The position numbers and the translations under genes are program-made. From Loxodes magnus (lineage: Eukaryota > Ciliophora > Karyorelictea > Loxodida > Loxodidae), in contig CAMPDV010000279.1 in the NCBI GenBank assembly GCA_946699065.1, positions 124,001-188,000 of the forward strand: a stretch of DNA of 64,000 nucleotides, given 5' to 3'. The notes under the pieces are model-generated. The model was not told where the DNA came from. It saw only the letters and a program-made list of their open reading frames with translations, and made no database searches. This document shows, one piece after another, positions 3,977-56,552 of the stretch (position 1 is the first letter of the stretch; the number at the start of each line of letters is the position of its first letter).

Positions 3977-6135
3977 TTAATGAGTTTAATTGTTCTTCTT
4001 TCTTATACTCTCTCTCATCAGTTGCTTAAATACCTCTTCTTGTCCTCCACACTCATCCAAATATTATTTGTATCACAATTCTTAAACCTCAAACCATAAA
4101 TGAATATATTTAATTTCAATCTGCCTAGTTTATTATTTAGATATATTATTAATAATATTTACCCATTTTTATTACTAGTCATTTAAACGATAGTTTTGAC
4201 TTAATATTCTCTATATTTTCTATCTTGTTATAAAATATTAAATACTTGAAAATGTAAACCATAGATGATCATTAACTGATACTAACCATTTATTGCTCCT
4301 TGAAATATTCAAACTACCTACGCAATAAGTATAATTTATAAGAGTGCATACACATAATTAGTTGCAGTATTTCATATCTTAACGGTCTTGTCACTTGAAT
4401 CCGATATAATATGCTTATTATTTCATGTTATTTCGACTACTAATATAGCACCTGAATGGCCAGATAAAGTTTGAATAAATTGACTATTAGAGAAGTTCTA
4501 TATCTTAATGTTTTGTCATGACTTCCCTATACAATACATTTATGGTCACTCGATATCGCTACAGATCTTACATATCTTTTATGTCCATACAAAGTACTCT
4601 TAAACTAACCAGTTGTAAATCCCAAATCTTGTTTGTTTTATCATCATTTTCGTATACAATTCATTTCTAGCCACTTGAAATAGCTACAGATCATACATAA
4701 CTTGTATGTCCCTTCAAATTAGTCTTTAACTAAGTAATTGTAAAGTAACGTATCTTTATCGTATTATCAGGAGATGCAGAATCTGATATGATTCATTTCT
4801 GGTTATTTGATATCGCTACAGAGTTTACAGATGACGAGTGGCCTTGAAACAATATGGATGTTCAGTTATGACTGAGGTGGGGTTGGAATTATTAAAGTTT
4901 CAGTTTTGAACTTTGTGTTTCTTAAGTTACAAAATTGCAATTTATTGTTAGTAAAATTGATATTGGTGAAAATATTCTGTCGGATAATTCTGCACTAGTT
5001 AGATTTAAATTATTTAGATTAACTTAGTTGAATTTGAAGTTCTTGAAATTTAAGAGAGTAATTGCATAAGCTTAAGCTTACTATAAGTCTTAAGATTATC
5101 TTGATAATTCTATCATTTGTACTAAATTTTACTAGAGTACTTAGTTTTTATTTCATTCAACTACAACTACGACAAGATATCATTATTTGTTTTAAAACTG
5201 GACTTATTCAAAGAATTCTTAATCAAGATTTATAAGTTTATATTCTCTTACTTAAATTGATTCAAGAATTAACGGAACTGATCAAAATCATGCTATTAAA
5301 ATTTAATATTTTATAATTTGAGATATTTGTTTACTCTTATTTTATACTAATATTTTACTTATAGCTAAAATTAATAATATTTTATTAAGTCCCTTAAAAT
5401 TTAACTTTTTTGGCTCTTTTGCTTTATTATCATTCTGCTAATTTAAATTTTATTCGGCTGAAAATAATTATCAATTAACTAGTGAAAATATTACTCCGTT
5501 AATAATTAACTCTAAGGCTACTTCTTTAAGTATGTAAACAATTCAAGAATTAAATATTGCTTCAGTATCTTAAAACTATTCAGATCCTATAACTTAATTT
5601 ATTTTCCTATAGCTCTTGATTTTAGTATTAATGAAATAAATTTTATTATTCGTGTTAATTCTATGATCTTATCTACTATGAATATGAATTTTGTCAAAAT
5701 GCTAATTTTTATATCTTTTTCTTTATTTTATCTAGCTGGTTTATATAATTACCTTAATGATGAATATTACTTTTTAAATTTTCTTTAAAAATTCTAAAAT
5801 TGAAAGTAAACCAAATTTAATAGAGATCTAAAAAGCTTATGACTTTCATTTATTTCTTAAAATATTTTTATTTCAATCATCTTATTTTATTGTTTTATGA
5901 GTCATTATAATATTTTTGGTGCTTTCATGTTTTGATCTGATTATGCTGTATTTTATAATTCTTCAAGTCTTATATTAAATACTTCGATATGATTCGTACA
6001 ACCAATCTTTTTTGTAAGTTGATAAACTCTTTTAAGACATTATAAACAAGAAATTCATTCGCATAGAAGTTATTTTACTAGACACTTTTCTCAATCGAAA
6101 TATTTCGGAAAATTTGGATACTGATAAACATCCAT
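3977..6135 (-). pseudogene. WD40-repeat protein gene, complete arrangement, with frame breaks (unit 1)
   Basis: WD40 proteins fold as beta-propeller scaffolds. Reading starts at ATG 6135 with MDVYQYPNFPKYFDWEKC and a Cys-containing stretch, then a long Gln/Asn-rich helical region of about 400 codons. The WD40 part follows, with GH...SVAIS...QKWI and DKT.KIW repeats at about 4850-4190, and a C-terminal tail ends at TAATAA (3974-3979). Trp positions in KWI and KIW are often TGA. Four apparent one-base losses, all in the same direction, separate the frame segments, so this is probably a decaying gene; programmed slippage is a remote alternative. It is the only copy with both termini. Confidence 0.6.
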
Positions 6136-6411
6136 TTAAAAATAAAAAATGTTTAGTAAAAGAGATTAATTATTTTGGAAAAAAATAGAAAATTAAAATA
6201 TAAAAATAAAGAAAGAAAAAAATTAATTTTATTGTAATTAAGTTACAAAATTTAAATCTTTAGGAAATTAATTAATTTACTAATATAAACATTATTATGA
6301 TAAATCTAGTTTAAATAACGTGTATCATTCCTTCCAATGTGATTTAATTAAACTCTAATATTAAGAAGTACCTCACATAAGAAGAAACAAACAAAAATCA
6401 GAGCACAAACC

Positions 6412-6650
6412 ATGATGGACAAGATTGGAGAGGAATAAAATAGCATTAATGTTGAAAAATGTAGGATATTAGAGTTTCTTAGGATAGCCCTCTGATCTTG
6501 GCCTTGTATAAGAAGATATTTTCAAAGAAATAATATCACTAGATAGATTTTCAATGAAAAATTTATTAAAACTTTAAAAATTTGATTAAATGAAATGAGT
6601 GCTCAATAATCGAAGTTTTTTAATCAAAAATAAAAAAACTTATAAAAATA
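6412..6650 (+). CDS. Hypothetical protein fragment, copy 1
   Basis: ATG at 6412, divergent from the WD40 gene, opens a frame of about 75 credible codons including CRILEFLRIALWSWPCIRRY, with one Trp as TGA and Gln as TAA/TAG. After about 6640 the translation becomes AT-rich noise, so the 3' end is arbitrary. The family is unknown. The copy at 31602 is the same; the copy at 56553 has lost one A in an A-run and is frameshifted. Confidence 0.35.
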
Positions 6651-9468
6651 TAAATATTAAATAAATAATCAAAAATAATTAAAAGTTTAAATAAAAAATA
6701 AAATATTTATTTAAAAAATTATATTTTCCTGAGTAGCGAGCTGGTCAGATTCCCTAGTTTAAATTAGTTCATTTGTAGTTTTATATTCATTCTATATTGG
6801 GTTCCTTCTTTCATATTTTCCCATTTTAAATTGGATAAAAGATAATAATATATATTTAAATCTTCTTAAAGTTTGAAACATAAAAAATTAATACAAGTTA
6901 AATTTTATACGAAATTAAAGAATATTAAGATCAAATATTTCAAAAATAAACAAAAAAATTTTTTTCCAAACTTTTTCTCTTTTATCTTTTTTTTTAATAT
7001 ATTTATATTTTTATTGTGATTTTCTTTTTTAATTCACTTTCTTTTTACTAGATAAAATTTTTGACGTTAAATTTTTTTGTTTTAAAACCTTTTTTTCTTT
7101 TTTATATTTATTTTATTCATTGAAAAATATTATTTTAATTCTTTATCATTTTTTAAATATTTTTATTTTAAAATATTAAAAAATTTGCATGAATTAATAA
7201 TTGAATAATATCTTTTTTACTATAATTTATAGTGTTTTTTTATGAATTAAAGGAATTTTAAATTTTTTTAACAAATGTATTGTTTAATTTCAGATTATTT
7301 TCATTTGCTTTGCTTTATCAATTTAAACATTTTTTTTAATTTTAAGATCAAACATTGTGATTTTTTTCTTTCTCGTATTTCCTTTTAATATATTTTTTTA
7401 ATATTTTTATTTTTTAAAATCGTTCTAAATTAAAAACTTGATATATATATTTTTTTGTCGCTTATTTATATCTTTTTTTACTTGTTAAATTTTAATAATT
7501 TTTTGGTAAAATAATTTTTTGATATTCGAGCTTTTTCATAATAATCTTATTTTAATAATACTCTACTATTATTTGTTGTTAAATATTATTTTTTAAGTGA
7601 CTTAAGGTTAAGTAAATAATTGTTGTTTAGCTAGTCCTTTTATATGCTTTAAATTTACGAAAATGTTTATATATTTTTAATTCTAAATATGTTTTTAATG
7701 AAAATAATAACAAAAATTAATTATAGTTGCGCTACGCTTATTAGATTAATCATTTTAAATAAATTCGTATATGTTCTTATAAAATTTCTGCTGTTTCTTG
7801 CAAAATTGCTCATAGATTTTTACTCTTCTTTCTCTTCAATCAGTTTTCAAGATCAGTCCTTTTTTTTATCTTCCAGTTCTATTAATTTGAATAAAAGCTT
7901 AACTAGAACAGATTTATTACTTATTTATATTTGGTATTATTTTATCTTTTATATGATACTATATTATACTTTTAAAATCTTCTTATCATTTTCAAGTTTT
8001 CCTCATTAATTACTATAGTTGGCAACATTTATTAGTAACTGATTTTATTTTCTGTCTAAAGTACCTTAATTAAATTTTTCTTATATAATAAGGTAAAAAT
8101 AATTTTTCGTTGTACGTAAGATTTGAAATGCTAGGAGAAATAAATAACTCTGATTAAAATTATAATTAGTAATAAATCATATGCTAATTGGATACTTAAA
8201 GAGTGCATTTCATCTTAATAGTATATAACAAGAGAAATGTTACTAATAATATAATTAAATAAAATAGAATTTAGAGATAAGGATAGTAATAAAAAGGAAT
8301 TATAAAAAATAATAGTTGATGTATGAATTAGAATATAAAATAGGGTTATAAAGACTATATAGTGTGTTATAATATAGTAATGAAGATGAATAAGATTGAA
8401 ATAGTAGTTTATAATAAGAATAAGAATAATAATATTAAATAAGCTAAGATCTATTATCTGCTTTAATCAAATTATTACATTTATAGATTCTAAATTAAAT
8501 TAATTATCTATTAAAAACTAAAAGAATAAGAGCAACAATATCATACAACACTTTAACACTTTATTACATTTCCAAGCAAAACTAAATCAAACTAACTAAC
8601 TAAATGTTTACTTTACTATTATTTAAACTCACTATTTTATAATTCATTAAACACAAATTTTATACGGAGTAGATTAAATCATTACATATTATCTTTCTAC
8701 TCAAAAATTACTAAAGATATTAAAAAAAGATTAATAGAAAGGAATAAAATCGACAATATAAATATATTTTAAGAATCAAAGAACTAATATCAAGAAATCT
8801 AATACATCAGTTAAAAGACTCTAACTATTATCAAAATATTACATAAATTTTTAATTCAAACATCTCCTTAAAAGAATCATTTTTTCATAAATAAAGTGAA
8901 AAAGTAGAAAATTAACAAAGTTCTTAAAATATAACTCTAATATGCATAATAACTTTAAAATAAATGAAGCTGCTAAATCAAAAATTAATTAATAATCAAA
9001 CAATAATTTAAGATAAATATTTAAATTTGTTAAATGTTATTTTCATCTCCACTTATATCAAAAATTACACTCTATAATCAAAAGCTTACTTATTATTAAA
9101 ATGTTTACATCCTAAAATAGAAAAAACTACCTAATATAAATAATCTAATATTAATCCTTACTATAACATTCTTTAATAAATTATATTAGCATTACTTTCT
9201 TTTAAAATCAATTATTACCCCCTATAAATAATACTATTATTACATTCTATATCATAAAAATACTGACTAAACTTAAATATTACAAGCTCATATAAAAAAT
9301 CACAAGCTTAAATAAAATGTAAACCATCTTATAATTATCTCTTACAATCAAAAATTAAATAAATACCTGAAGTAGATTCTTACCGCCTGTGGTAATTTAA
9401 TACCCTCTAATAATAAAAAAAAGATACCAACTATAATAGTTTTTAAATACAAACTGTGAATAAAAACT
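6651..9468. other. Long AT-rich spacer
   Basis: Extremely AT-rich, with T-runs to about 7700, then A-rich sequence. From about 8500 onward it contains scattered degenerate TTAC...CTATAAAT motifs that resemble units of the neighbouring satellite. A hydrophobic reading frame at 7689-8009 was judged not to be a gene. No RNA gene recognised. Confidence 0.6.
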
Positions 9469-11072
9469 ATCTTACGTTCTATAAATACTTAAAATATCTT
9501 ACTCGCTATTATTATTTAAAATATCTTACATTCTATAAATATTAGAAATATCTTACTATCTATAAATGTTTAAAACATCTTACAATCTATAAATACTTAA
9601 AATATCTTACAATCTATAAATACTTAAAATATCTTGCAAACTATAAATATTAGAAATATCTTACTGCCTATAAATATTTAAAATATCTTACGTTCTATAA
9701 ATACTTAAAATATCTTACTCGCTATTATTATTTAAAATATCTTGCATTCTATAAATATTTTAAATATCTTACCATCTATAAATATTTAAAACATCTTACA
9801 TTCTATAAATACTTATAATATCTTACCATCTATAATTATTTAAAATATCTTGCTCCCTATAAATATAAGAATATCTTACAATCTATAAATATTTAAAGTA
9901 TCTTACATTCTATAAATATTTAAAGTATCTAACTCCCTATAAATTTTTAAAACATCTTACCATCTATAAATACTTAGAATATCTTACTCCCTATAAATAT
10001 TAGAAATATCTTACTCCCTATAAATATTAAAAATATCTTGCCATCTATAAATATTTAAAATATCTTACATTCTATAAACATTTAAACAATCTTACCATCT
10101 ATAAACATATGAAATATCTTACAATCTATAAATATTTAAAATATCTTACTATCTATAAATATTATAAATATCTTACATGCTATAAATACTTAAAATATCT
10201 AACGAACTATAAATATTTAAAACATCTTACTCCCTATAAATATTAGAAATATCTTACCATCTATAAATTTTTAAAACATCTTACTCTCTATAAATATTTA
10301 AAATATCTTGCTCGCTATAAATATTAGAAATATCTTACATTCTATAAATACTTAAAATATCTTACACCCTATAAAATTTTAAAATATCTTGCAATCTATA
10401 AATATTTAAAACATCTTACATTCTATAAATATTTATTATATCTTACCATCTATAGATATTTAAAATATCTTACTATCTATAAATATTTAAAATATCTTAC
10501 ATTCTATAAATACTTAAAATATCTTACTATCTATAGATATTTAAAAAATCTACTATCTATAAATATTTAAAATATTTTACATTCTATAAATATTTATTAT
10601 ATTTTACCATCTATAATTATTTAAAATATCTTACTCCCTATAAATATTTAAAGTATCTTACATTCTATAAATACTTAAAATATCTTACTATCTATAGATA
10701 TTTAAAATATCTTACTATCTATAATTATTTAAAATATCTTACAATCTATAAATATTTATTATATCTTACAATCTATAAATATTAGAAATATCTTATGAAC
10801 TATTAATATTTAAAGTATCTTACATTCTATACAAATTTAAAATATCTTACCATCTATAAATTTTTAAAACATCTTACTGCCTATAAATATTAGAAATATC
10901 TTACTAACTATAAATATTTTAAATATCTTACCATCTATAAATATTTAAAATATCTTGCCATCTAAAAATATTTTAAATATCTTACCATCTATAAAAATTA
11001 AAAATATCTAACATTCTATAAATATTTTAAATATCTTACCATCTATAAATATTTAAAATATCTTACATTCTA
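9469..11072. repeat. 27-bp satellite array, copy 1 (about 59 units)
   Basis: Head-to-tail units of 27 bp, framework ATCTTAC-NNN-CTATAAATATTTAAAAT. Units are almost all exactly 27 bp; two 26-bp units (near 9860 and 10545) are the visible exceptions. The three bases after TTAC vary widely (ATT, GTT, TCG, AAT, CAT, TCC, TGC, TAT, ACC, GAA and others) while the rest is well conserved. A second, milder variable zone lies in ATATTTAAA. It lies between the AT-rich spacer and the RING-UBL gene. Every frame is open because no codon is a dedicated stop here, so coding cannot be excluded, but a non-coding satellite is the simpler view. Confidence 0.9.
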
Positions 11073-11580
11073 ATTCAAATAGAAATACCATCTTATTTTA
11101 GTTTTTACCTCCTTTATTTGTTATTTTTACTTGCTATAATTAAATAAATAACTTTCTGGATTTGTTAAATTACCAACTTAATATTATTATTGTACAATCT
11201 TCTTTATTTAATACATTCTATATTTAATTTTTACCTCCTTTCTTAGTATTTTTACAGACTTATTTATCTTATTACATTCTTAAATTTAATTTTATTACTT
11301 TCTAGCTTTTAAAGTGTTACTCACTTTTGATAAATAAATTACACACTTTTTTAAAATTTACCTCCTGTACATTTATTTTTAACTTTTTTCGAAGTCATGT
11401 TAACCTTTTTTTATTTTTCTTACTTTCTCCTATTTTTGATTATTTATTACTTTCTAATTTTTATTTTTATTTTACATTCTATTATTATTTTATTTACCAT
11501 ATTATTCTCTCATTATTTCGAAAACTAATTTTTTATTAATTACTTTCTATTTTTAATATTTACCTCCTAATTTTGTATTA
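11073..11580. other. Degenerate satellite flank with TTACCTCC motifs
   Basis: Between the array and the RING-UBL gene the sequence keeps TTACATTCT and TTACTTTCT fragments and repeats TTACCTCC four times (near 11106, 11234, 11348, 11561), with CACCTCCTAAA at 11587. It looks like an older part of the satellite. The reading frame 11327-11539 is not supported as a gene. Confidence 0.4.
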
Positions 11581-12123
11581 TTATCTCACCTCCTAAAATT
11601 TATATTAATTACAATCCTTCAACTTTAGGTCTAACTAAAATTCATCTTTATTCCCCATTCTAACTATTTTACGTTAACTATCATATTTTTCTTATTGGCT
11701 ATAAAGTTCATAGAACTCAGTGTTAATTCCTTCTAATCTTTCTACTTTTTATTTCAGTTATTCAATTGTTTCTCCTTCCTCTACTGTTAAGTTTATTTCT
11801 TCTTTATTTAGAGTTAAAATCTTGATTTTTATTAGTTTCGGATTTCGTTATTAAAATAACTCATTTTTAGTTTCTTTAAGATGTAGTTATTTATATTCTT
11901 ATTTACTTTCACTTTATTAGCTATTTTAGCTTATTAAATTTGCTGGATTATCATAGGAAACTTTTTTGCACTCTCTTTTTGAGCACTGGTTAAAACCCTC
12001 TTTTTAGTATTCTTCAAGAATACAAATTTTACATACTTGATGTCCACAAGGAAGGTTTACGGGAATTCGTATTGATGAATCGAAATGAATTAAGCATGAG
12101 CTGCACCTATTAGATTCAGCCAT
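11581..12123 (-). CDS. RING finger plus ubiquitin-like domain protein, copy 1
   Basis: Probable ubiquitin-pathway protein of 180 residues, ATG at 12123, ending at tandem TAATAA. A RING-like zinc-binding set is seen at C7, C10, C26, H28, C31, C34, C47 and C52, with PCGHQVCKIC at its centre; the last pair is spaced C-x4-C rather than the usual C-x2-C. A Gln-rich linker follows. Residues about 98-170 match the ubiquitin fold: KIKILTLNKEEINLTVEEGE, then TIEQLKQKVERLEGI, closely paralleling ubiquitin's beta1-beta2 and helix. No C-terminal Gly-Gly is seen, so it is a domain, not a processed ubiquitin. TAA and TAG encode Gln throughout. RING proteins usually act as E3 ligases, which is inference here. 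Confidence 0.82.
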
Positions 12124-12514
12124 ATTTATTATAATTAAAGTGACTTAAAGTAAATAGTTTAAATCTATTTATTTTTAATATTCTAAGCAAAACCTTAAGA
12201 AAATAATAAGTTATTAATAATTAGATAGTATATCGTTTAAATCTATTATTCAGAAGCTTATCTAAATTAAGAATTTATGTATTACCTTAATCAAACATTT
12301 AGCTATTCTTTAATTTATTTGAATCCATATAGTATCAACTACTATCTATACTCATGCACTCTATCTTTTAGAACTTTAATGCAATCAAAATGCTACTATC
12401 ATAGCTTTTGTATACTAATAATAGTTATCTATTTATAAAGCTTTTACTTATAATAGGAAGGATATACTTTTAGTATAACTAGTAGCTTTTTAAAAGGATT
12501 TATTTGCTTCTTTA

Positions 12515-13380
12515 ATTATTTCTAAGGATAATAAAAAAATGGCAGAAGGTCTCAGGAAGGGTTTTTTTCCAGCTCCATAGAAAAAGGAAAAAAAACCAGA
12601 GACTTCTAATTCTTCTCCTACCACGTCTTCTTTAATAATATAATAATTTTCTTAGGCTCTTTAACCCCCAAATTTAGAAAAATAAAGATAATCTTAAATT
12701 GAATAAGAAATTAAATCAACAGAAACTGACTAAAGCAAGCGAGACTTTCTACTCCCATAGCCACGATCAAGCAACTACATGAAAAGTGGTAACTAAAAAA
12801 TAATGTAGAAATAGAAAAATGATGAATAGCTAATAATAGAATAACTTATGAAATCTATCCGTAACCTATAAGAAGAAGTTTAAATATTAAAGAAAGAAAA
12901 CCAAAAATTACTATAGAAAAGTTAAAACAATGAAGAAAGATTAATGAAACAGGAAATCGAAGTGAAACTTTTGGGAGAAAAAAGAATTTAACCTTAAACT
13001 TTAGCTGAAAATAAAATGGAACTAGAATACACAAAACCCTTAGAGATAACTCCTCCCAGAAGGATCGTCAAGCTGTGCTACCTGTGCAAATCAAAATTCC
13101 ACACATACAAGAGATGCAAGATATATTTGGATAAACAGAGAAGAAACAGTGAAGAGATTTGGAGAGAACTTTCAAGAATTTATGTAGACAAGGATGGAAG
13201 AATATTTAGAAGGAGGCTTTTTCAAGGGAGTGCCAGAACTCCAAAAAAACTGGGAGTCCCGAACTTTTATTTTAAACCTCAAGGAACGAACTCTGGAGGT
13301 ATGTATTGAAGGGGTTTAAAATCCCCGGAGATACGAACACTTTAATTTAGTATATTATTATTATTATTATTATTTCTAAG
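12515..13380 (+). mobile_element. Gag-only retroelement with target-site duplication (gag1 element, copy 1)
   Basis: The insert (about 12527-13368, 842 bp) lies between two copies of ATTATTTCTAAG, at 12515-12526 and ending at 13380. The same locus in unit 2 has a single copy with no insert (37733-37744). The element has a leader of about 12 bases, one ORF, a 3' part with a GGGG/CCCC stem and 8-base loop, then TATA followed by about six TTA repeats. This structure fits target-primed reverse transcription of a LINE- or SINE-like transcript, but the element carries no reverse transcriptase. Confidence 0.85.
12539..13309 (+). CDS. Gag/ORF1-like CCHC zinc-knuckle protein (gag1)
   Basis: A 256-residue protein from ATG 12539 to TGA 13307-13309, with many internal TAA/TAG as Gln. 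The N-terminus is Lys/Pro/Ser-rich; residues about 95-147 form a coiled coil. A CCHC zinc knuckle is at C180, C183, H188, C193 (CYLCKSKFHTYKRC), followed by a conserved basic module, IWRELSRIYVDKDGRIF. Such proteins bind the element RNA and form a ribonucleoprotein in LINE ORF1 and retroviral-type Gag families. It is the only gene of its element, and copy 3 (63055) appears the same. The in-frame Trp is TGG, so here TGA acts as stop. Confidence 0.82.
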
Positions 13381-13910: not shown

Positions 13911-14200
13911 GCTTAGCGACTCTTTAGTTTGCCAATTCTTATTATCTAGAAAGAAATAGATCTTGCTTGCTTAGCGACTCTTTAGTTTGCCAATTCTTAT
14001 TATCTAGAAAGAAATAGATCTTGCTTGCTTAGCGACTCTTTAGTTTGCCAATTCTTATTATCTAGAAAGAAATAGATCTTGCTTGCTTAGCGACTCTTTA
14101 GTTTGCCAATTCTTATTATCTAGAAAGAAATAGATCTTGCTTGCTTAGCGACTCTTTAGTTTGCCAATTCTTATTATCTAGAAAGAAATAGATCTTCCTT
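13911..14200 (+). repeat. 58-bp minisatellite, five copies
   Basis: Five perfect or near-perfect tandem units beginning GCTTAGCGACTCTTTAG, at 13911, 13969, 14027, 14085 and 14143. The last unit ends TTCCTTGCTT instead of TTGCTTGCTT. The equivalent place in unit 2 (38275-38332) has a single unit. The length is not a multiple of three, so a coding repeat is unlikely. Confidence 0.95.
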
Positions 14201-14446
14201 GCTTCACTCTTGCTACCTCAGCGTTTATATTTTGCCTCATAGCCTTTATGTAAATTGAAGTATTTCTAATTAAGCATGAATCTTGCTGAAGGAAAGGGAG
14301 CTAAAAATTCGAATAATCTATTCTATCTGCCACTAATTTAGCTGAAGCTCCTGAAGGTAGGAATCTTTCTAAATATATTTTGGAAACGTTAGCTTCTTCT
14401 TTATTTCCTTCTACACAAAATCAGAAACTATTTCATTAAGAACTAG
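14201..14446 (+). other. Likely coding remnant just upstream of RT copy 2
   Basis: One + frame gives NLAEAPEGRNLSKYILETLA and continues to about 14440, then shifts by one base into the RT frame. It probably belongs to the same LINE ORF, and it is missing from unit 1, which starts inside it. Confidence 0.35.
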
Positions 14447-24212: not shown

Positions 24213-25036
24213 AATTAAAATAAAGCGGATCTCTTCCATTAAAAGACAAAAAAGAATTTAGATAAAAATTCAGAACAGAAAAGTTAACATAGCTCTCAAC
24301 ACTCCATTGAAAACGGAAATAAGAGACCACTCAACTGAATCGATAAAAATAATAACGAAGAAATAAAAAATAAACGAAGAAGGTAAAGTACGATAATTCA
24401 ATATAGATCCTATTACCTTTTATTTAGACAATACTGAAATAGAATAAATGGACTCTTAGTAGATGAAACAGCTGATTCATAAACTTATTAGAAACATAAA
24501 AAAACTCAAAGAGGAATAAAAATCCCAGAAAGAAGAGATGTTTGTATTAAGTCAGGATTTGATAAATCATGAAGATGATGATGAAGTCTATATGGTAGAC
24601 CGAAGAGCTAAAGTTGTAGTTTATGAGCAAATGGCAAGTTTAGAGAAAGATATTTGAACAATGCAAGAGCAGACTAGAAAAACTGAGTGAAATTAGATTC
24701 AAAACGCAAATTAATAGAAAAAAATCTGTAGAACTTTCATAAGGAACTCCAATGGAAATAGAGAAACAAGAAAAGACATTTCCTAGAGCAAGAAAAAGAT
24801 ATTATATTTGCATCAGCACTTGACATCTATGATGGAAATATCCCCAATAGAAATAAATGAGAATGAATATCTGAAGAAATGTTAGCTAATAGCAACTGAA
24901 GTACCGAGCAATCAACTCGGATTATTCAAAAGAGAGAAGTCAAGGAAAAAGAGCAATACAAGAAATGAACATGTAGGAACGGAGATATTATACATTTATA
25001 ACTTCAATTAAGCCGGAAGGTGAACAGTTATTTTAA
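24213..25036 (+). pseudogene. Gag-like relic (gag3, copy 1) with lost zinc ligands
   Basis: A frame with ITFYLDNTEIEQMDSQQMKQ and an acidic coiled coil runs to about 24650, shifts by one base, and continues EQCKSRLEKLSEIRFKTQI through the knuckle to TAATAA (25034-25039). In this copy the knuckle reads YYICISTWHLWWKY: both outer Cys are Tyr. The copy at 47663 keeps all four ligands. The C-terminal module has MNIWRNV with Trp as TGA here and TGG in the other copy. No in-frame start codon was found, so the left end is approximate. Confidence 0.55.
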
Positions 25037-25197
25037 TAATTAATAGCAATTTAAGAAATTTTAATAAGTTCTTTATACTTAAAAAAATAAAGAAATAATT
25101 AATTTTATTATGAATTTGTTATATAAATTCTCTATTAAAAATCAAAATTATAAAGTTGTTATATATATTAGTAAAATGAAATTAAAATATGAAGTTA

Positions 25198-26697
25198 TTA
25201 TATTTTTTTACCTTTATCCCAATTTTGCTCTTCTTTTCTTCCATCTGCATAATAATGAGTTCCTTTCCCATACTTAAGACCTTCTACAAAATGACCTTCA
25301 TAATGAGATCCATCATAATATTTTTCAACTCCATACCCATGACTCTTCCCTTTGAAGTACTCTCCCTCATATATTTCTCCATCTGCATAATAGTAAGTTC
25401 CCTTTCCTTACTTAAGATTTTCTACAAATTAACCTTCATATCAATCTCCAAAGTTATACTTATAAACTCCATATCCATGTCTCTTTTCTTTGAAAAACTC
25501 ACCATCATATATTGCTCCATCTGTATAATAGTAAGTTCCTTTTCCTTACTTAAGACCTTCTTCTCATTAACCTTCATATCGAGATCCATCCTTATACTTA
25601 TAAACTCCTTATCCATGCCTCTTGTCTTTGAACCATTCGCCCTCATATATTGCTCCACTTGCATAATAGTAAGTTCCCTTTCCTTACCTAAAATCTTCTA
25701 TATATTAACCTTCATATCGATCTCCATTGTTATACTTCTCAACTCCGTATCCATCTTTCTTTCCATTTCTCTTCTCTCCATCATATCCTATCTCATTTTC
25801 TTGTACTTTCTCTTCCTAATTTGTTCCTACTTCCTTTTACTCTTCTATTTCGATCTCCTTCACATTACTCTTTAATATCTCCTACATGCTCATCTCTTAC
25901 TTTATCTTCTCTAACTTCTACAATGACGTTTCTAAACTCATTCTTTGATCTGCTTCTTATTTTCAACTCTCCCTTATTATCTCCTCTATCACACAATTCT
26001 CAGGTATTTCCTCTCTTTCACCTCTCTTTATCCCTTCTCGTAACTCTCCTTCCTCTACTTCTTCGAAAGGTATTTTTCTTGTCACTATCTCCCATAAAAC
26101 AACTCCATAAGCATATATGTCAGAAAAGAAACTATACTTTGGTCTCATTCCAAATAACTCAGGAGCCATCCATCTTATTGTTCCAACCTTTTTATTTGTA
26201 CTCGAGGATTTAGAAGCTGATTTGACTTTAGATAATCCGAAATCACTTATTTTAACATTCTTACTTTGATTTAGGAGTATATTCTCGCTTTTTAAATCCC
26301 TATGAACTACGTTGTTAGAATGTAAGTAAAATATACCCGCTGCTATTTGCTGAGCTATTTCTAATTTCAGTACTAAACTTATATCTTATTTACTATGGAG
26401 AAATTACATAAGAGAACATTACATTAATTCCACTATAATTCTTGTTGGCTCTAGACTATATCCATAGAATTATATAATGTTAGGATGTTTTAAATTTTGC
26501 ATTATTTAAATCTCTTTGTTGAATTCTCATTCAGTATCTTCATTCAACTTCCTTTGAAAGAAATCTTTAATAGCTACATTTGTAAATTTATTTCATTTTC
26601 CTTAGTAGACTGTACCATAAGCTCCATGTCCAATTTCTTTTTCAATTTATAATGTCGATGATTCTATTTTAATATTAAAGCTTATACTACTTTCCAT
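25198..26697 (-). CDS. Protein kinase with C-terminal MORN repeats, copy 1
   Basis: A 499-residue kinase fused to MORN repeats; the stop is TAATAA (25195-25200). Kinase domain: glycine loop GHGAYGTVY (23-31), VAIK Lys44, HRDLKSEN (132-139), DFG (152-154), APE (178-180), [12 protein letters not shown], and IRESW...ADQRMS (subdomain XI, Trp245). All catalytic residues are present and the pattern is TKL/MAPKKK-like. Residues about 305-490 hold MORN units such as DGSRYEGQW and HGYGVYKY, which often bind phospholipids or target membranes. Trp 35, 57, 245, 378 and 419 are TGA; 176, 202, 355 and 493 are TGG; Gln is often TAA/TAG. Copy 2 is nearly identical. Signalling near membranes is inferred. Confidence 0.93.
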
Positions 26698-26999: not shown

Positions 27000-27370
27000 A
27001 TGGATGTCGGCTGCATTCTGGAGAACTAGTAGTTATCTGGTGCAGTGTATACTGCATTGTGAGTAATCTCGCACTAGATGCCACCACGGGGAAGGGTGGA
27101 TAAGCTCCGTTGAGACATGCTTAACTTGCTCAGAGGGTTCTCGCTTGCAGTATGAAAGTTTTACTGGAGGGTCCTCTAGTTAATGACTTAATAACTAATT
27201 CTTATTTGTACTTTATTCAAGAAGAATGGAACATTTGATTCAAGACTTGTGAATGATGTTTAGTAAATAGATTCTCCATTAAGAGAAGCTGATGTGACTT
27301 ATTGGACTACAAGAATTTTAAGAAGAAACATGAGAACATTTTTCCTAATATTAAATATTAATATTGAAAG
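27000..27370 (+). repeat. About 360-bp GC-richer repeat, right member of inverted pair (copy 1)
   Basis: Inverted partner of 20337-20700. It contains GCAGTGTATACTGCA, a CCACC-ACGGGGAA-GGGTGG stem-loop and other short stems, suggesting a folded transcript. It is in the same place in unit 3 (50450). Confidence 0.6.
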
Positions 27371-29649: not shown

Positions 29650-31325
29650 TGCCAGATAAAGTTTGAATAAATTGACTATTAGAGAAGTTCTATATCTTAA
29701 TGTTTTGTCATGACTTCCCTATACAATACATTTATAGTCACTCGGTATCGCTACAGATCTTACATATCTTTTATGTTCATACAAAGTACTCTTAAATTAA
29801 CCAGTTGTAAATCCCAAATCTTGTTTGTTTTATCATCATTTTCGTATACAATTCCTTTCTAGCCACTTGAAATAGCTACAGATCATACATAACTTGTATG
29901 TCCCTACAAATTACTCTTTAACTAAGTAATTGTAAAGTAACGTATCTTTATCGTATTATCAGGAGATGCAGAATCTGATATGATTCATTTCTGGTCACTT
30001 GATATCGCTACAAAGTTTACGGATGACGAGTGGCCTTGAAGCAATATGGATGTTCAGTTATGACTGAGGTGAGGTTGGAATTATTAAAGTTTCAGTTTTG
30101 AACTTTGTATTTCTTAAGTTACAAAATTGCAATTTATTGTTAGTAAAATTGATATTGGTGAAAATATTCTGTCGAATAATTTTGCATTAGTTAGATTTAA
30201 ATTATTTAGATTAACTTAGTTGAATTTGAAGTTCTTGAAATTTAAGAGAGTAATTGCATTAACTTAAGCTTCAAGTCTTAAGGTTATCTTGATAATTCTA
30301 TCATTTGTACTAAATTTTACTAGAGTACTTAGTTTTTATTTCATTCAACTACAACTACGACAAGATATCATTATTTGTTTTAAAACTGGACTTATTCAAA
30401 GAATTCTTACTCAAGATTTATAAGTTTATATTCTCTTACTTAAATTGATTCAAGAATTAACGGAACTGATCAAAATCATGCTATTAAAATTTAATATTTT
30501 ATAATTTGAGATATTTGTTTACTCTTATTTTATACTAATATTTTACTTATAGCTAAAATTAATAATATTTTATTAAGTCCCTTAAAATTTAACTTCTTCT
30601 TGGCTCTTTTGCTTTATTATCATTCTGCTAATTTAAATTTTATTCTGCTGAAAATAATTATCAATTAACTAGTGAAAATATTACTCCGTTAGTAATTAAC
30701 TCTAAGGCTACTTCTTTAAGTATGTAAACAATTCAAGAATTAAATATTGCTTCAGTATCTTAAAACTATTCAGATCCTATAACTTAATTTATTTTCCTAT
30801 AGCTCTTGATTTTAGTATTAATGAAATAAATTTTATTATTCGTGTTAATTCTATGATCTTATCTACTATGAATATGAATTTTGTCAAAATGCTAATTTTT
30901 ATATCTTTTTCTTTATTTTATCTAGCTGGTTTATTTAATTACCTTAATGATGAATATTACTTTTTAAATTTTCTTTAAAAATTCTAAAATTGAAAGTAAA
31001 CCAAATTTAATAGAGATCTAAAAAGCTTATGACTTTCATTTATTTCTTAAAATATTTTTATTTCAATCATCTTATTTTATTGTTTTATGAGTCATTATAA
31101 TATTTTTAGTGCTTTCATGTTTTGATCTGATTATGCTGTATTTTATAATTCTTCAAGTCTTATATTAAATACTTCGATATGATTCATACAACCAATCTTT
31201 TTTGTAAGTTGATAAACTCTTTTAAGACATTATAAACAAGAAATTCATTCGCATAGAAGTTATTTTACTAGACACTTTTCTCAATCGAAATATTTCGGAA
31301 AATTTGGATACTGATAAACATCCAT
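29650..31325 (-). pseudogene. WD40 gene copy lacking its 3' part (unit 2)
   Basis: ATG at 31325 and the same N-terminal and helical regions as the unit 1 gene, with only the first WD40 repeats before the break at 29650 (GCCAGATAAAG). It shares the frame breaks in the part retained. Together with 17457-18655 it would make up the unit 1 gene, separated here by 11 kb. Confidence 0.6.
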
Positions 31326-31601
31326 TTAAAAATAAAAAATGCTTAGTAAAAGAGATTAATTATTTTGGAAAAAAATAGAAAATTAAAATATAAAAATAAA
31401 GAAAGAAAAAAATTAATTTTATTGTAATTAAGTTACAAAATTTAAATCTTTAGGAAATTAATTAATTTACTAATATAAACATTATTATGATAAATCTAGT
31501 TTAAATAACGTGTATCATTCCTTCCAATGTGATTTAATTAAACTCTAATATTAAGAAGTACCTCACATAAGAAGAAACAAACAAAAATCAGAGCACAAAC
31601 C

Positions 31602-31840
31602 ATGATGGACAAGATTGGAGAGGAATAAAATAGCATTAATGTTGAAAAATGTAGGATATTAGAGTTTCTTAGGATAGCCCTCTGATCTTGGCCTTGTATA
31701 AGAAGATATTTTCAAAGAAATAATATCACTAGATAGATTTTCAATGAAAAATTTATTAAAACTTTAAAAATTTGATTAAATGAAATGAGTGCTCAATAAT
31801 CGAAGTTTTTTAATCAAAAATAAAAAAACTTATAAAAATA
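31602..31840 (+). CDS. Hypothetical protein fragment, copy 2
   Basis: Same as the frame at 6412 with no frame change seen. It starts MMDKIGEEQ and is divergent from the WD40 copy. The 3' end is uncertain. Confidence 0.35.
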
Positions 31841-34668
31841 TAAATATTAAATAAATAATCAAAAATAATTAAAAGTTTAAATAAAAAATAAAATATTTAT
31901 TTAAAAAATTATATTTTCCTGAGTAGCGAGCTGGTCAGATTCCCTAGTTTAAATTAGTTCATTTGTAGTTTTATATTCATTCTATATTGGGTTCCTTCTT
32001 TCATATTTTCCCATTTTAAATTGGATAAAAGATAATAATATATATTTAAATCTTCTTAAAGTTTGAAACATAAAAAATTAATAAAAGTTAAATTTTATAC
32101 GAAATTAAAGAATATTAAGATCAAATATTTCAAAAATAAACAAAAAATGTTTTTTCCAAACTTTTTCTCTTTTATCTTTTTTTTTAATATATTTATATTT
32201 TTATTGTGATTTTCTTTTTTAATTCACTTTCTTTTTACTAGATAAAATTTTTGACGTTAAATTTTTTTGTTTTAAAACCTTTTTTTCTTTTTTATATTTA
32301 TTTTATTCATTGAAAAATATTATTTTAATTCTTTATCATTTTTTAAATATTTTTATTTTAAAATATTAAAAAATTTGCATGAATTAATAATTGAATAATA
32401 TCTTTTTTACTATAATTTATAGTGTTTTTTTATGAATTAAAGGAATTTTAAATTTTTTTAACAAATGTATTGTTTAATTTCAGATTATTTTCATTTGCTT
32501 TGCTTTATCAATTTAAACATTTTTTTTAATTTTAAGATCAAACATTGTGATTTTTTTCTTTCTCGTATTTCCTTTTAATATATTTTTTTAATATTTTTAT
32601 TTTTTAAAATCGTTCTAAATTAAAAACTTGATATATATATTTTTTTTGTCGCTTATTTATATCTTTTTTTACTTGTTAAATTTTAATAATTTTTTGGTAA
32701 AATAATTTTTTGATATTCGAGCTTTTTCATAATAATCTTATTTTAATAATACTCTACTATTATTTGTTGTTAAATATTATTTTTTAAATGACTTAAGGTT
32801 AAGTAAATAATTGTTGTTTAGCTAGTCCTTTTATATGCTTTAAATTTACGAAAATGTTTATATATTTTTAATTCTAAATATGTTTTTAATGAAAATAATA
32901 ACAAAAATTAATTATAGTTGCGCTACGCTTATTAGATTAATCATTTTAAATAAATTCGTATATGTTCTTATAAAATTTCTGCTGTTTCTTGCAAAATTGC
33001 TCATAGATTTTTACTCTTCTTTCTCTTCAATCAGTTTTCAAGATCAGTCCTTTTTTTTATCTTCCAGTTCTATTAATTTGAATAAAAGCTTAACTAGAAC
33101 AGATTTATTACTTATTTATATTTGGTATTATTTTATCTTTTATATGATACTATATTATACTTTTAAAATCTTCTTATCATTTTCAAGTTTTCCTCATTAA
33201 TTACTATAGTTGGCAACATTTATTAGTAACTGATTTTATTTTCTGTCTAAAGTACCTTAATTAAATTTTTCTTATATAATAAGGTAAAAATAATTTTTCG
33301 TTGTACGTAAGATTTGAAATGCTAGGAGAAATAAATAACTCTGATTAAAATTATAATTAGTAATAAATCATATGCTAATTGGATACTTAAAGAGTGCATT
33401 TCATCTTAATAGTATATAACAAGAGAAATGTTACTAATAATATAATTAAATAAAATAGAATTTAGAGATAAGGATAGTAATAAAAAGGAATTATAAAAAA
33501 TAATAGTTGATGTATGAATTAGAATATAAAATAGGGTTATAAAGACTATATAGTGTGTTATAATATAGTAATGAAGATGAATAAGATTGAAATAGTAGTT
33601 TATAATAAGAATAAGAATAATAATATTAAATAAGCTAAGATCTATTATCTGCTTTAATCAAATTATTACATTTATAGATTCTAAATTAAATTAATTATCT
33701 ATTAAAAACTAAAAGAATAAGAGCAACAATATCATACAACACTTTAACACTTTATTACATTTCCAAGCAAAACTAAATCAAACTAACTAACTAAATGTTT
33801 ACTTTACTATTATTTAAACTCACTATTTTATAATTCATTAAACACAAATTTTATACGGAGTAGATTAAATCATTACATATTATCTTTCTACTCAAAAATT
33901 ACTAAAGATATTAAAAAAAGATTAATAGAAAGGAATAAAATCGACAATATAAATATATTTTAAGAATCAAAGAACTAATATCAAGAAATCTAATACATCA
34001 GTTAAAAGACTCTAACTATTATCAAAATATTACATAAATTTTTAATTCAAACATCTCCTTAAAAGAATCATTTTTTCATAAATAAAGTGAAAAAGTAGAA
34101 AATTAACAAAGTTCTTAAAATATAACTCTAATATGCATAATAACTTTAAAATAAATGAAGCTGCTAAATCAAAAATTAATTAATAATCAAACAATAATTT
34201 AAGATAAATATTTAAATTTGTTAAATGTTATTTTCATCTCCACTTATATCAAAAATTACACTCTATAATCAAAAGCTTACTTATTATTAAAATGTTTACA
34301 TCCTAAAATAGAAAAAACTACCTAATATAAATAATCTAATATTAATCCTTACTATAACATTCTTTAATAAATTATATTAGCATTACTTTCTTTTAAAATC
34401 AATTATTACCCCCTATAAATAATACTATTATTACATTCTATATCATAAAAATACTGACTAAACTTAAATATTACAAGCTCATATAAAAAATCACAAGCTT
34501 AAATAAAATGTAAACCATCTTATAATTATCTCTTACAATCAAAAATTAAATAAATACCTGAAGTAGATTCTTACCGCCTGTGGTAATTTAATACCCTCTA
34601 ATAATAAAAAAAAGATACCAACTATAATAGTTTTTAAATACAAACTGTGAATAAAAACTATCTTACGT
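31841..34668. other. Long AT-rich spacer (unit 2)
   Basis: Equivalent of 6651-9468, nearly identical; no gene supported. Confidence 0.6.
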
Positions 34669-36290
34669 TCTATAAATACTTAAAATATCTTACTCGCTAT
34701 TATTATTTAAAATATCTTACATTCTATAAATATTAGAAATATCTTACTATCTATAAATGTTTAAAACATCTTACAATCTATAAATACTTAAAATATCTTA
34801 CAATCTATAAATACTTAAAATATCTTGCAAACTATAAATATTAGAAATATCTTACTGCCTATAAATATTTAAAATATCTTACGTTCTATAAATACTTAAA
34901 ATATCTTACTCGCTATTATTATTTAAAATATCTTGCATTCTATAAATATTTTAAATATCTTACCATCTATAAATATTTAAAACATCTTACATTCTATAAA
35001 TACTTATAATATCTTACCATCTATAATTATTTAAAATATCTTGCTCCCTATAAATATAAGAATATCTTACAATCTATAAATATTTAAAGTATCTTACATT
35101 CTATAAATATTTAAAGTATCTAACTCCCTATAAATTTTTAAAACATCTTACCATCTATAAATACTTAGAATATCTTACTCCCTATAAATATTAGAAATAT
35201 CTTACTCCCTATAAATATTAAAAATATCTTGCCATCTATAAATATTTAAAATATCTTACATTCTATAAACATTTAAACAATCTTACCATCTATAAACATA
35301 TGAAATATCTTACAATCTATAAATATTTAAAATATCTTACTATCTATAAATATTATAAATATCTTACATGCTATAAATACTTAAAATATCTAACGAACTA
35401 TAAATATTTAAAACATCTTACTCCCTATAAATATTAGAAATATCTTACCATCTATAAATTTTTAAAACATCTTACTCTCTATAAATATTTAAAATATCTT
35501 GCTCGCTATAAATATTAGAAATATCTTACATTCTATAAATACTTAAAATATCTTACACCCTATAAAATTTTAAAATATCTTGCAATCTATAAATATTTAA
35601 AACATCTTACATTCTATAAATATTTATTATATCTTACCATCTATAGATATTTAAAATATCTTACTATCTATAAATATTTAAAATATCTTACATTCTATAA
35701 ATACTTAAAATATCTTACTATCTATAGATATTTAAAAAATCTACTATCTATAAATATTTAAAATATTTTACATTCTATAAATATTTATTATATTTTACCA
35801 TCTATAATTATTTAAAATATCTTACTCCCTATAAATATTTAAAGTATCTTACATTCTATAAATACTTAAAATATCTTACTATCTATAGATATTTAAAATA
35901 TCTTACTATCTATAAATATTTATTATATCTTACAATCTATAAATATTAGAAATATCTTATGAACTATTAATATTTAAAGTATCTTACATTCTATAAATAC
36001 TTAAAATATCTTACTATCTATAGATATTTAAAATATCTTACTATCTATAATTATTTAAAATATCTTACAATCTATAAATATTTATTATATCTTACAATCT
36101 ATAAATATTAGAAATATCTTATGAACTATTAATATTTAAAGTATCTTACATTCTATACAAATTTAAAATATCTTACCATCTATAAATTTTTAAAACATCT
36201 TACTGCCTATAAATATTAGAAATATCTTACTAACTATAAATATTTTAAATATCTTACCATCTATAAATATTTAAAATATCTTACATTCTA
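34669..36290. repeat. 27-bp satellite array, copy 2 (about 60 units)
   Basis: Same 27-bp units and variable trinucleotide as the first array. Compared with copy 1, a block near 35840-36110 is duplicated (the series ending in TTATGAACTATTAATATT occurs twice) and several units near the right end are missing, so the array changed by whole-unit exchange. Confidence 0.9.
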
Positions 36291-36798
36291 ATTCAAATAG
36301 AAATACCATCTTATTTTAGTTTTTACCTCCTTTATTTGTTATTTTTACTTGCTATAATTAAATAAATAACTTTCTGGATTTGTTAAATTACCAACTTAAT
36401 ATTATTATTGTACAATCTTCTTTATTTAATACATTCTATATTTAATTTTTACCTCCTTTCTTAGTATTTTTACAGACTTATTTATCTTATTACATTCTTA
36501 AATTTAATTTTATTACTTTCTAGCTTTTAAAGTGTTACTCACTTTTGATAAATAAATTACACACTTTTTTAAAATTTACCTCCTGTACATTTATTTTTAA
36601 CTTTTTTCGAAGTCATGTTAACCTTTTTTTATTTTTCTTACTTTCTCCTATTTTTGATTATTTATTACTTTCTAATTTTTATTTTTATTTTACATTCTAT
36701 TATTATTTTATTTACCATATTATTCTCTCATTATTTCGAAAACTAATTTTTTATTAATTACTTTCTATTTTTAATATTTACCTCCTAATTTTGTATTA
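36291..36798. other. Degenerate satellite flank (unit 2)
   Basis: Equivalent of 11073-11580 with the same TTACCTCC motifs; no gene supported. Confidence 0.4.
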
Positions 36799-37341
36799 TT
36801 ATCTCACCTCCTAAAATTTATATTAATTACAATCCTTCAACTTTAGGTCTAACTAAAATTCATCTTTATTCCCCATTCTAACTGTTTTACGTTAACTATC
36901 ATATTTTTCTTATTGGCTATAAAGTTCATAGAACTCAGTGTTAATTCCTTCTAATCTTTTTACTTTTTATTTCAGTTATTCAATTGTTTCTCCTTCCTCT
37001 ACTGTTAAGTTTATTTCTTCTTTATTTAGAGTTAAAATCTTGATTTTTATTAGTTTCGGATTTCGTTATTAAAATAACTCATTTTTAGTTTCTTTAAGAT
37101 GTAGTTATTTATATTCTTATTTACTTTCACTTTATTAGCTATTTTAGCTTATTAAATTTGCTGGATTATCATAGGAAACTTTTTTGCACTCTCTTTTTGA
37201 GCACTGGTTAAAACCCTCTTTTTAGTATTCTTCAAGAATACAAATTTTACATACTTGATGTCCACAAGGAAGGTTTACGGGAATTCGTATTGATGAATCG
37301 AAATGAATTAAGCATGAGCTGCACCTATTAGATTCAGCCAT
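36799..37341 (-). CDS. RING finger plus ubiquitin-like domain protein, copy 2
   Basis: A 180-residue copy with all eight RING ligands kept. In the ubiquitin-like part two replacements are seen against copy 1: Glu128 to Lys and Ile153 to Thr. It ends at TAATAA. There is no gag1 insertion upstream in this unit. Confidence 0.82.
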
Positions 37342-37732
37342 ATTTATTATAATTAAAGTGACTTAAAGTAAATAGTTTAAATCTATTTATTTTTAATATT
37401 CTAAGCAAAACCTTAAGAAAATAATAAGTTATTAATAATTAGATAGTATATCGTTTAAATCTATTATTCAGAAGCTTATCTAAATTAAGAATTTATGTAT
37501 TACCTTAATCAAACATTTAGCTATTCTTTAATTTATTTGAATCCATATAGTATCAACTACTATCTATACTCATGCACTCTATCTTTTAGAACTTTAATGC
37601 AATCAAAATGCTACTATCATAGCTTTTGTATACTAATAATAGTTATCTATTTATAAAGCTTTTACTTATAATAGGAAGGATATACTTTTAGTATAACTAG
37701 TAGCTTTTTAAAAGGATTTATTTGCTTCTTTA

Positions 37733-37744
37733 ATTATTTCTAAG
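37733..37744 (+). other. Empty target site for the gag1 element
   Basis: A single ATTATTTCTAAG, where units 1 and 3 have two copies flanking the gag1 element. It shows the exact insertion point. Confidence 0.85.
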
Positions 37745-48647: not shown

Positions 48648-50147
48648 TTATATTTTTTTACCTTTATCCCAATTTTGCTCTTCTTTTCTTCCATCTGCAT
48701 AATAATGAGTTCCTTTCCCATACTTAAGACCTTCTACAAAATGACCTTCATAATGAGATCCATCATAATATTTTTCAACTCCATACCCATGACTCTTCCC
48801 TTTGAAGTACTCTCCCTCATATATTTCTCCATCTGCATAATAGTAAGTTCCCTTTCCTTACTTAAGATTTTCTACAAATTAACCTTCATATCAATCTCCA
48901 AAGTTATACTTATAAACTCCATATCCATGTCTCTTTTCTTTGAAAAACTCCCCATCATATATTGCTCCATCTGCATAATAGTAAGTTCCTTTTCCTTACT
49001 TAAGACCTTCTTCTCATTAACCTTCATATCGAGATCCATCCTTATACTTATAAACTCCTTATCCATGCCTCTTGTCTTTGAACCATTCGCCCTCATATAT
49101 TGCTCCACTTGCATAATAGTAAGTTCCCTTTCCTTACCTAAAATCTTCTATATATTAACCTTCATATCGATCTCCATTGTTATACTTCTCAACTCCGTAT
49201 CCATCTTTCTTTCCATTTCTCTTCTCTCCATCATATCCTATCTCATTTTCTTGTACTTTCTCTTCCTAATTTGTTCCTACTTCCTTTTACTCTTCTATTT
49301 CGATCTCCTTCACATTACTCTTTAATATCTCCTACATTCTTATCTCTTACTTTATCTTCTCTAACTTCTACAATGACGTTTCTAAACTCATTCTTTGATC
49401 TGCTTCTTATTTTCAACTCTCCCTTATTATCTCCTCTATCACACAATTCTCAGGTATTTCCTCTCTTTCACCTCTCTTTATCCCTTCTCGTAACTCTCCT
49501 TCCTCTACTTCTTCGAAAGGTATTTTTCTTGTCACTATCTCCCATAAAACAACTCCATAAGCATATATGTCAGAAAAGAAACTATACTTTGGTCTCATTC
49601 CAAATAACTCAGGAGCCATCCATCTTATTGTTCCAACCTTTTTATTTGTACTCGAGGATTTAGAAGCTGATTTGACTTTAGCTAATCCGAAATCACTTAT
49701 TTTAACATTCTTACTTTGATTTAGGAGTATATTCTCGCTTTTTAAATCCCTATGAACTACGTTGTTAGAATGTAAGTAAAATATACCCGCTGCTATTTGC
49801 TGAGCTATTTCTAATTTCAGTACTAAACTTATATCTTATTTACTATGGAGAAATTACATAAGAGAACATTACATTAATTCCACTATAATTCTTGTTGGCT
49901 CTAGACTATATCCATAGAATTATATAATGTTAGGATGTTTTAAATTTTGCATTATTTAAATCTCTTTGTTGAATTCTCATTCAGTATCTTCATTCAACTT
50001 CCTTTGAAAGAAATCTTTAATAGCTACATTTGTAAATTTATTTCATTTTCCTTAGTAGACTGTACCATAAGCTCCATGTCCAATTTCTTTTTCAATTTAT
50101 AATGTCGATGATTCTATTTTAATATTAAAGCTTATACTACTTTCCAT
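48648..50147 (-). CDS. Protein kinase with C-terminal MORN repeats, copy 2
   Basis: A 499-residue copy with every catalytic motif of copy 1 and the same five in-frame TGA at Trp positions. Differences seen: DFGLAK instead of DFGLSK after the DFG motif, Ala for Thr in one MORN unit (YYYADG), and MS to IR in the linker near residue 269. No frame break. Two intact copies argue that the gene is functional or only recently duplicated. Confidence 0.93.
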
Positions 50148-50449: not shown

Positions 50450-50846
50450 AATGGATGTCGGCTCCATTCTGGAGAACTAGTAGTTATCTGGTGCAGTGTA
50501 TACTGCATTGTGAGTTATCTCGCACTAGATGCCACCACGGGGAAGGGTGGATAAGCTCCGTTGAGACATGCTTAACTTGCCCCGAGGGTTCTCGATTGCA
50601 GTATGAAAGTTTTACTGACGGGTCTTCTAGTTAATGACTTAATAACTAATTCTTATTTGTACTTTATTCAAGAAGAATGGAACATTTGATTCAAGACTTG
50701 TGAATGATGTTTAGTAAATAGATTCTCCATTAAGAGAAGCTGATGTGACTTATTGGACTACTAGAATTTTAAGAAGAAACATGAGAACATTTTTCCTAAT
50801 ATTAAATATTAATATTGAAAGAGCTCATGATCCAGAAATTATAAAA
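50450..50846 (+). repeat. About 360-bp repeat, right member of inverted pair (copy 2)
   Basis: Equivalent of 27000-27370 and extending to the TATAAAA at 50840-50846, where the extra segment starts. A few substitutions against copy 1, mostly outside the stems. Confidence 0.6.
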
Positions 50847-56276: not shown

Positions 56277-56552
56277 TTAAAAATAAAAAATGTTTAGTAA
56301 AAGAGATTAATTATTTTGGAAAAAAATAGAAAATTAAAATATAAAAATAAAGAAAGAAAAAAATTAATTTTATTGTAATTAAGTTACAAAATTTAAATCT
56401 TTAGGAAATTAATTAATTTACTAATATAAACATTATTATGATAAATCTAGTTTAAATAACGTGTATCATTCCTTCCAATGTGATTTAATTAAACTCTAAT
56501 ATTAAGAAGTACCTCACATAAGAAGAAACAAACAAAAATCAGAGCACAAACC

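Follow-up and report, generated by a model that had tools for sequence, protein, structure and literature searches.

Sense TAA, TAG, and TGA codons and an unusual TAA TAA end in a kinase-MORN gene of the karyorelict ciliate Loxodes magnus

The window, i.e., the whole 64,000-nucleotide stretch of Loxodes magnus contig CAMPDV010000279.1 that was analyzed here, contains a gene whose product combines a protein kinase domain with MORN repeats. Read on the minus strand from position 26697 to position 25198 with translation table 28 (TAA and TAG as Gln, TGA as Trp), it yields 499 unbroken residues, followed by TAA; without a sense reading of TAA, TAG, and TGA alike, this frame would be broken. The initial annotation had reported an unbroken 499-residue kinase-MORN protein at 25198 to 26697, and these coordinates are correct, with the strand, which it did not give, being minus. 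In Pfam, the protein matches the PK_Tyr_Ser-Thr family (PF07714; 2.8e-63, 214.1 bits) and the MORN family (PF02493; 6.5e-40, 133.1 bits), both above the respective cutoffs. The kinase domain, which is also recognized through matches to PDB sequences, spans residues 16 to 261 (25915 to 26652, minus strand) and contains kinase sequence motifs, DFG among them. The MORN repeats, approximately eight when counted by eye, occupy positions 25240 to 25785 (minus strand) with a two-repeat period of 138 bp, and six stretches pass Pfam on their own. The kinases EGFR, B-Raf, and Raf-1 are among the best PDB matches, as is MORN repeat-containing protein 1. Judged by sequence similarity, the predicted product is a kinase closest to Raf and EGFR that is joined to MORN repeats, and it would be expected to have kinase activity. 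The coding region has a GC content of 32%, and the 300 bases upstream of it have 15.3%.

The frame includes 17 TAA, 3 TAG, 5 TGA, 4 TGG, 7 CAA, and 1 CAG codons, which bears out the earlier statements that Gln is encoded largely by TAA and TAG and that four other Trp residues are encoded by TGG. Three in-frame TGA codons had been correctly placed at codons 35, 245, and 378, and two more, at codons 57 and 419, had been missed. The TGA at codon 35 (26593 to 26595, minus strand, as are the other four) falls in VYQGKW, at a position where B-Raf and EGFR also have Trp. The TGA at codon 245 (25963 to 25965) corresponds to the Trp of kinase subdomain XI. This residue had been described as near-invariant, which is too strong, given that EGFR has Trp at this position but B-Raf has Leu. 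The TGA at codon 378 (25564 to 25566) is translated as the Trp of the MORN motif YEGQW. No conserved Trp is found at codon 57 (26527 to 26529), where the other 17 of the 18 paralogous sequences described below have Cys, Lys, Arg, Ser, Ala, or Gln, or at codon 419 (25441 to 25443; DWYEGQF), where the sister MORN repeats of the same protein have Arg or His.

The window consists of tandem segments of approximately 25 kb, mostly 96 to 99% alike (4459 to 12526, 29651 to 37744, and 54603 to 61292, plus the intervening blocks). A second copy of the kinase-MORN gene lies at 48648 to 50147 on the minus strand; it differs at five bases, none of them at an in-frame stop codon, and has the same TAA TAA end. 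The contig carries at least five kinase-MORN genes, two of them within the window, and seven near-identical genomic copies, all with the identical 25 in-frame stop codons, are found among the matches listed. Elsewhere in the genome, full-length kinase-MORN genes are repeatedly paired with a copy on the opposite strand, mostly 6 to 8 kb away, that matches from residue 162 or 163 onward (contigs C288, C703, C668, C1056, C2136, C782, C1328, and C1414).

Several other features were recorded in the window. Each segment carries one array of a 27-bp satellite with 60 to 74 copies and a strong strand skew (9464 to 11072, 34655 to 36290, and 59603 to 61588). A 58-bp tandem repeat (13911 to 14204, 5 copies at 99% identity) was listed by the repeat finder in one segment only. 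WD40 repeats with a period of 126 bp are encoded at 50928 to 51345 (minus strand), with a frame shift between their two parts at approximately 51.2 kb. Three WD40-related arrays at 4509 to 4744, 29701 to 29936, and 54653 to 54888 have a period of 125 bp, which shifts the frame at each repeat, so that they look like decayed copies. Three short stretches with a GC content of 43 to 53% (27000 to 27180, 50452 to 50631, and 51575 to 51784) stand out in a region of approximately 20% GC; they had no Rfam match at the gathering score and are perhaps relics of a mobile element or a structural RNA. At 24274 to 25026 on the plus strand, codon usage marks a coding-like stretch; it lies opposite the distal 3' flank of the kinase gene, which it overlaps, and had no match to any Pfam family above the cutoff. 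Six-frame Pfam searches of 12.5 to 22.5, 28.5 to 33.5, and 50.4 to 52.4 kb and of the plus strand of 22.5 to 25.2 kb returned no family above the cutoff except WD40, and scans of the window for tRNA genes and Rfam families gave 0 hits. A codon-usage gene finder applied to the window produced fragmentary calls that had not settled after 8 rounds.

The meaning of the three codons was evaluated from the kinase-MORN gene itself and from its paralogues. When each of the 20 residues was placed at the TGA codons of this gene alone, the summed PF07714 and MORN scores were mildly best for Trp (347.2 bits, followed by Met with 343.1 and Phe with 342.9). The MORN profile by itself scored Phe higher, and PF00069 by itself favored Lys, Arg, or Gln. 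At the TAA and TAG codons, where ten residues were tried, the top scores were 351.1 for His, 347.3 for Glu, and 347.2 for Gln, so that Gln is not singled out by Pfam scores of one gene. The codon evidence from the single gene is thus of moderate strength; as far as sequence comparison goes, the codon meaning is settled by the paralogues.

The paralogues were collected from 705,730,643 bases in 7,843 contigs, with 86 of the 7,794 candidates scored; at least 120 stretches matched the kinase-MORN protein, several of which are pieces of one gene. Codon columns were compared in the kinase segments of the 18 sequences (of 41) that were kept after removal of near duplicates. Ten of these columns contain TGA, and in four of them every sequence has Trp, apart from a single TAG in one column. 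In these four columns, TGA and TGG replace each other in ratios of 8 to 10 (codon 35), 11 to 7 (codon 176), 5 to 13 (codon 202), and 10 to 7 plus the one TAG (codon 245). The column of codon 108 combines Trp (3 TGA, 2 TGG) with Leu and Asp, whereas the TGA-containing columns 13, 57, 157, 161, and 191 have no TGG. Over all columns of the 18 paralogues, the log2 enrichment of Trp with TGA was 6.44. Gln was the residue most enriched in the TAA columns (2.89, with Glu next at 1.15) and in the TAG columns (2.83, followed by Tyr at 1.58 and Glu at 0.96). The originally proposed reading, an intact gene in which TAA and TAG encode Gln and internal TGA encodes Trp, is upheld by these columns. The WD40 repeats of the window contain the same alternation: the Trp of DQKW-I is encoded by TGG at 51095 and by TGA at 50969 and 51220, and the Trp of the WD dipeptide is encoded by TGA at 51056 and by TGG at 50930. 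In-frame TAA and TAG codons are also present in the listed full-length matches to dynein and actin, some of which contain TGA as well.

The dN/dS ratios between the kinase-MORN gene and seven members of the next (77%) subfamily were 0.13 to 0.17, indicating purifying selection on the frame over that span; eight other comparisons, not part of the window pair set, gave ratios of 0.11 to 0.64, the highest between loci L021 and L042. An unbroken domain protein with 25 in-frame stop codons, the same 25 in seven near-identical copies, is more than chance. The gene could conceivably be a pseudogene of a standard-code or TGA-stop gene that picked up nonsense mutations at random, given that TGG turns into TGA by a single G-to-A change, that the genome is AT rich, and that codons 57 and 419 do not correspond to conserved Trp residues. 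Such an origin is extremely improbable, as it would have to account for 25 in-frame stop codons without a frameshift, for the exchange of TGA and TGG at four conserved Trp positions in 18 paralogues, and for the in-frame stop codons of the listed dyneins and actins. The paralogue exchange and the conserved-gene data rule out both a chance open frame and a pseudogene.

The codons at which translation ends were examined in conserved genes of the same genome. Dynein heavy chains gave 46 matches, 20 of which were fetched; the twentieth, L088, is not a C terminus and was dropped. The remaining 19 reach profile position 308 or 309, and the stop, which lies 3 to 10 codons beyond that point, is TGA in every one of them. 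Similarly, all 20 actin and actin-related protein (ARP) sequences, out of 96 matches, end at TGA. This sample was hand-picked from matches reaching profile position 409 or 410 and includes 10 near-identical actins and 4 more that are mutually similar; in one of the 20, the contig end cuts the sequence 17 bases after the TGA. Neither TAA nor TAG was the end codon in any of the 39 dynein and actin/ARP ends examined. TGA is therefore a working stop codon in this genome, which does not have a code without a dedicated stop. The initial annotation had held that systematic TGA ends in other genes, combined with a lack of conserved Trp at internal TGA, would speak against its reading; the TGA ends are indeed seen in other genes, but conserved Trp positions carry TGA as well.

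Seven of the 19 dyneins have a TAG exactly four codons before the terminal TGA, where it must be a sense codon because other dyneins have CAA or CAG at this position. In the 464 codons that precede the dynein stops, TAA was seen 0 times, whereas its frequency in the rest of the domain predicts 13.8 (Fisher P of 4e-6, an optimistic value because the dyneins are paralogues). TAG was not depleted in the same codons (10 seen versus 5.8 expected; P of 0.13), and for TGA (0 versus 1.8 expected) the numbers are too few to judge. This pattern agrees with the legend of Fig. 3C in PMC11441545, which describes UGA and UAA, but not UAG, as depleted upstream of the stop.

These data bear on the choice between the ciliate lineages named in the initial annotation, Condylostoma and some karyorelicts. 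In a Condylostoma-type code (table 28), each of the three codons would serve both as sense and as stop throughout the genome. Such a code would accommodate the three sense codons of the kinase-MORN gene, its TAA TAA end, and the TAA that 11 full-length copies carry at their homologous ends. It is nevertheless very unlikely, considering that 0 of 39 dynein and actin/ARP ends are TAA or TAG, that the TAG shortly before the dynein TGA is read as sense, and that the composition fits L. magnus. With TGA at all 39 conserved ends examined, a Condylostoma-type genome was rejected: the mention of karyorelicts fits L. magnus, and the genome is not generally Condylostoma-like.

The best explanation, to which we assign a probability of roughly 0.93, is that the kinase-MORN gene is a normal nuclear karyorelict gene that uses the code already published for these ciliates. 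Its basis was observed here: an open frame, the exchange of TGA with TGG and of TAR with CAR among the paralogues, and TGA as the stop codon of conserved genes. On the opposite side stand the six TGA-containing columns (108 and the five that lack TGG) in which Trp does not prevail in all sequences. In this code (table 27), UAA and UAG encode Gln, and UGA encodes Trp and is the only stop, as described for L. magnus itself (PMC11441545); UGA as a stop and UAR as Gln have also been reported for Loxodes species in PMC6935857. The macronuclear (MAC) assembly of L. magnus comprises 706 Mbp and is rich in tandem repeats, its coding sequences have a GC content of 33.5%, and its 3' untranslated regions (3'UTRs) have a GC content of 18.6% and a median length of 41 bp (PMC11441545). 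That all three stop codons are read as amino acids is striking, but it had already been published for karyorelict ciliates; the code is not new and is not the surprise that the initial annotation took it to be (PMC11441545). Its observation is confirmed, and its interpretation is supported in part.

In such a code, internal UAA and UAG would be read as Gln by suppressor-type tRNA-Gln, and internal UGA would be read by tRNA-Trp. A tRNA-Trp(CCA) with a 4-bp anticodon stem, a proposed UGA decoder, has been reported for Loxodes (PMC13092985 and PMC12005148, both citing Swart and colleagues). At the 3' end of the mRNA, where the poly(A) tail and the proteins bound to it are close, eRF1 would have the advantage, in line with the model of PMC4967479.

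In the 39 conserved ends, no stop other than UGA is seen, but the kinase-MORN gene and some of its relatives carry TAA at the codon that corresponds to the stop of related genes, a feature that had been overlooked. The same end, with TAA TAA, is shared by the window gene and its six near-identical copies. In the window gene, this TAA TAA (25195 to 25200, minus strand) stands at the place, after GKKI, where related genes carry TGA. The first in-frame TGA downstream is at 24940 to 24942 (minus strand), 86 codons past the TAA. The same distance is found in the second window copy, and the other five copies have the next TGA 67 (four copies) or 92 (one copy) codons on. The GC content of the intervening sequence is 12.8% in the first 180 bases and 32.1% in the remaining 78, and among the near-identical copies this stretch differs in frame, sequence, and length. 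Given its AT-rich start and this variation in frame and length, it does not look translated. A short intron of the Loxodes type, beginning with the GT of the last GGT codon and restoring a TGA, was considered and rejected: the first AG gives 80 bases, which is too long for L. magnus, whose introns have a mean length of 19, with 93% at 25 or less (PMC11441545).

A survey of family ends covered 59 loci, some of them overlapping (L013 and L054 contain the same genes, as do L019 and L055). The end was readable in 34 loci, with 15 TGA and 19 TAA, and unreadable in 25; the TAA codons of L016 and L058 are included in these counts and are not at the homologous codon. Among the 17 full-length genes of the nearest (77%) subfamily, seven end in QNWNNGKKI-TGA-TAA (L009 to L012, L014, L017, and L050), four with intact frames end in GKKI-TAA-TAA (L018, L020, L049, and L053), three have altered tails (L015, L016, and L019/L055), and three have unreadable ends (L013, L051, and L052). 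TGA is found at the homologous end in eight loci of distant relatives, some nearly identical (L028, L029, L033, L036, and L038 to L041), preceded by GKKIS, GKKVL, KNVL, or GIRID. Another distant relative, L035, has no TGA at the homologous place, and the other distant members are unreadable there. The 13 partial copies, most of which match from residue 162 or 163, comprise seven with TAA, one with TGA, one with an altered tail, and four with unreadable ends. A family tree requires a minimum of 8 end-codon changes among its 34 labeled rows. This is a rough figure, as the relevant part of the tree has poor resolution: stars mark 12 of the 47 inner branches, and most of the 77% subfamily is drawn open.

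The TAA end can be read in two ways, which were rated about equal: UAA near the 3' end may terminate translation, or the gene may be a copy that is losing its stop. The former reading, for which the odds are somewhat short of even, is that UAA in Loxodes keeps some stop activity near transcript ends and would thus be a second, context-dependent stop that lies outside current gene models. Counted in its favor are the 11 full-length, frame-keeping copies with TAA, the alternation of TGA and TAA at the ends of the kinase family, and the avoidance of UAA. Residual activity of this kind would also explain why UAA, unlike UAG, is avoided in roughly the last 20 codons, a shortage that would be its footprint. 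In the literature passages covered by a search, which did not include the key karyorelict paper, Seah 2022, UAA is not described as a stop in Loxodes.

The latter reading, held with the same tentative confidence, is that of a decaying duplicate in which a mutation has turned the TGA into a TAA that encodes Gln, and ribosomes enter the 3'UTR or poly(A), with little protein made. It is consistent with the conserved genes examined, which stop only at TGA, with the altered tails of some full-length family members, and with the partial copies, which mostly lack TGA (7 TAA and 1 TGA among the readable homologous ends). Furthermore, the variable codons among the 7 near-identical copies comprise 7 nonsynonymous and 4 synonymous ones, without clear constraint. 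All 7 copies nonetheless have an intact frame of 499 codons and identical in-frame stops, the four TAA-ended full-length paralogues of the 77% subfamily keep their frames, and the dN/dS ratios against that neighboring subfamily are low, although these mostly reflect older history.

A third reading takes TAA as Gln and the protein as genuinely extended at its C terminus, up to a downstream TGA. All seven copies do have such a TGA in frame, as do three of the four TAA-ended cousins, 21 codons on, and the GC content rises before the downstream TGA of the window gene. The low GC content of the first 180 bases and the variation of the downstream frame among near-identical copies make an extension improbable, and the TGA lies far past the usual 3'UTR length (PMC11441545).

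A family within one genome that has TGA and TAA alternating at the same stop position could be a small and testable novelty. It could reveal whether the Loxodes eRF1 still terminates at UAA near the poly(A) tail, and the question bears on how stop codons shift from one meaning to another.

Compared with known systems, the kinase-MORN gene resembles Raf-type kinases and MORN repeat proteins in sequence and differs from each in having the kinase and the MORN repeats in one protein that belongs to a large paralogous family. In the Blastocrithidia nonstop code (PMC12153298), UGA likewise encodes Trp, UAR codons are sense, and UAA has a double meaning; however, UAR encodes Glu in that organism, a trypanosomatid and not a ciliate, whereas the paralogue columns favor Gln here. 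Condylostoma magnum (table 28; PMC4967479) similarly has the three codons as sense in one gene and TAA at an apparent end, and the difference lies in the conserved genes examined here, which end in TGA only. The closest likeness is to L. magnus as described under table 27: UAA and UAG as Gln, UGA as Trp internally and as the stop terminally, depletion of UAA but not UAG before stops, AT-rich 3' ends, and a repeat-rich genome (PMC11441545). The one point of difference, which counts against the best explanation, is that the kinase-MORN gene and its copies have TAA where the UGA stop is expected.
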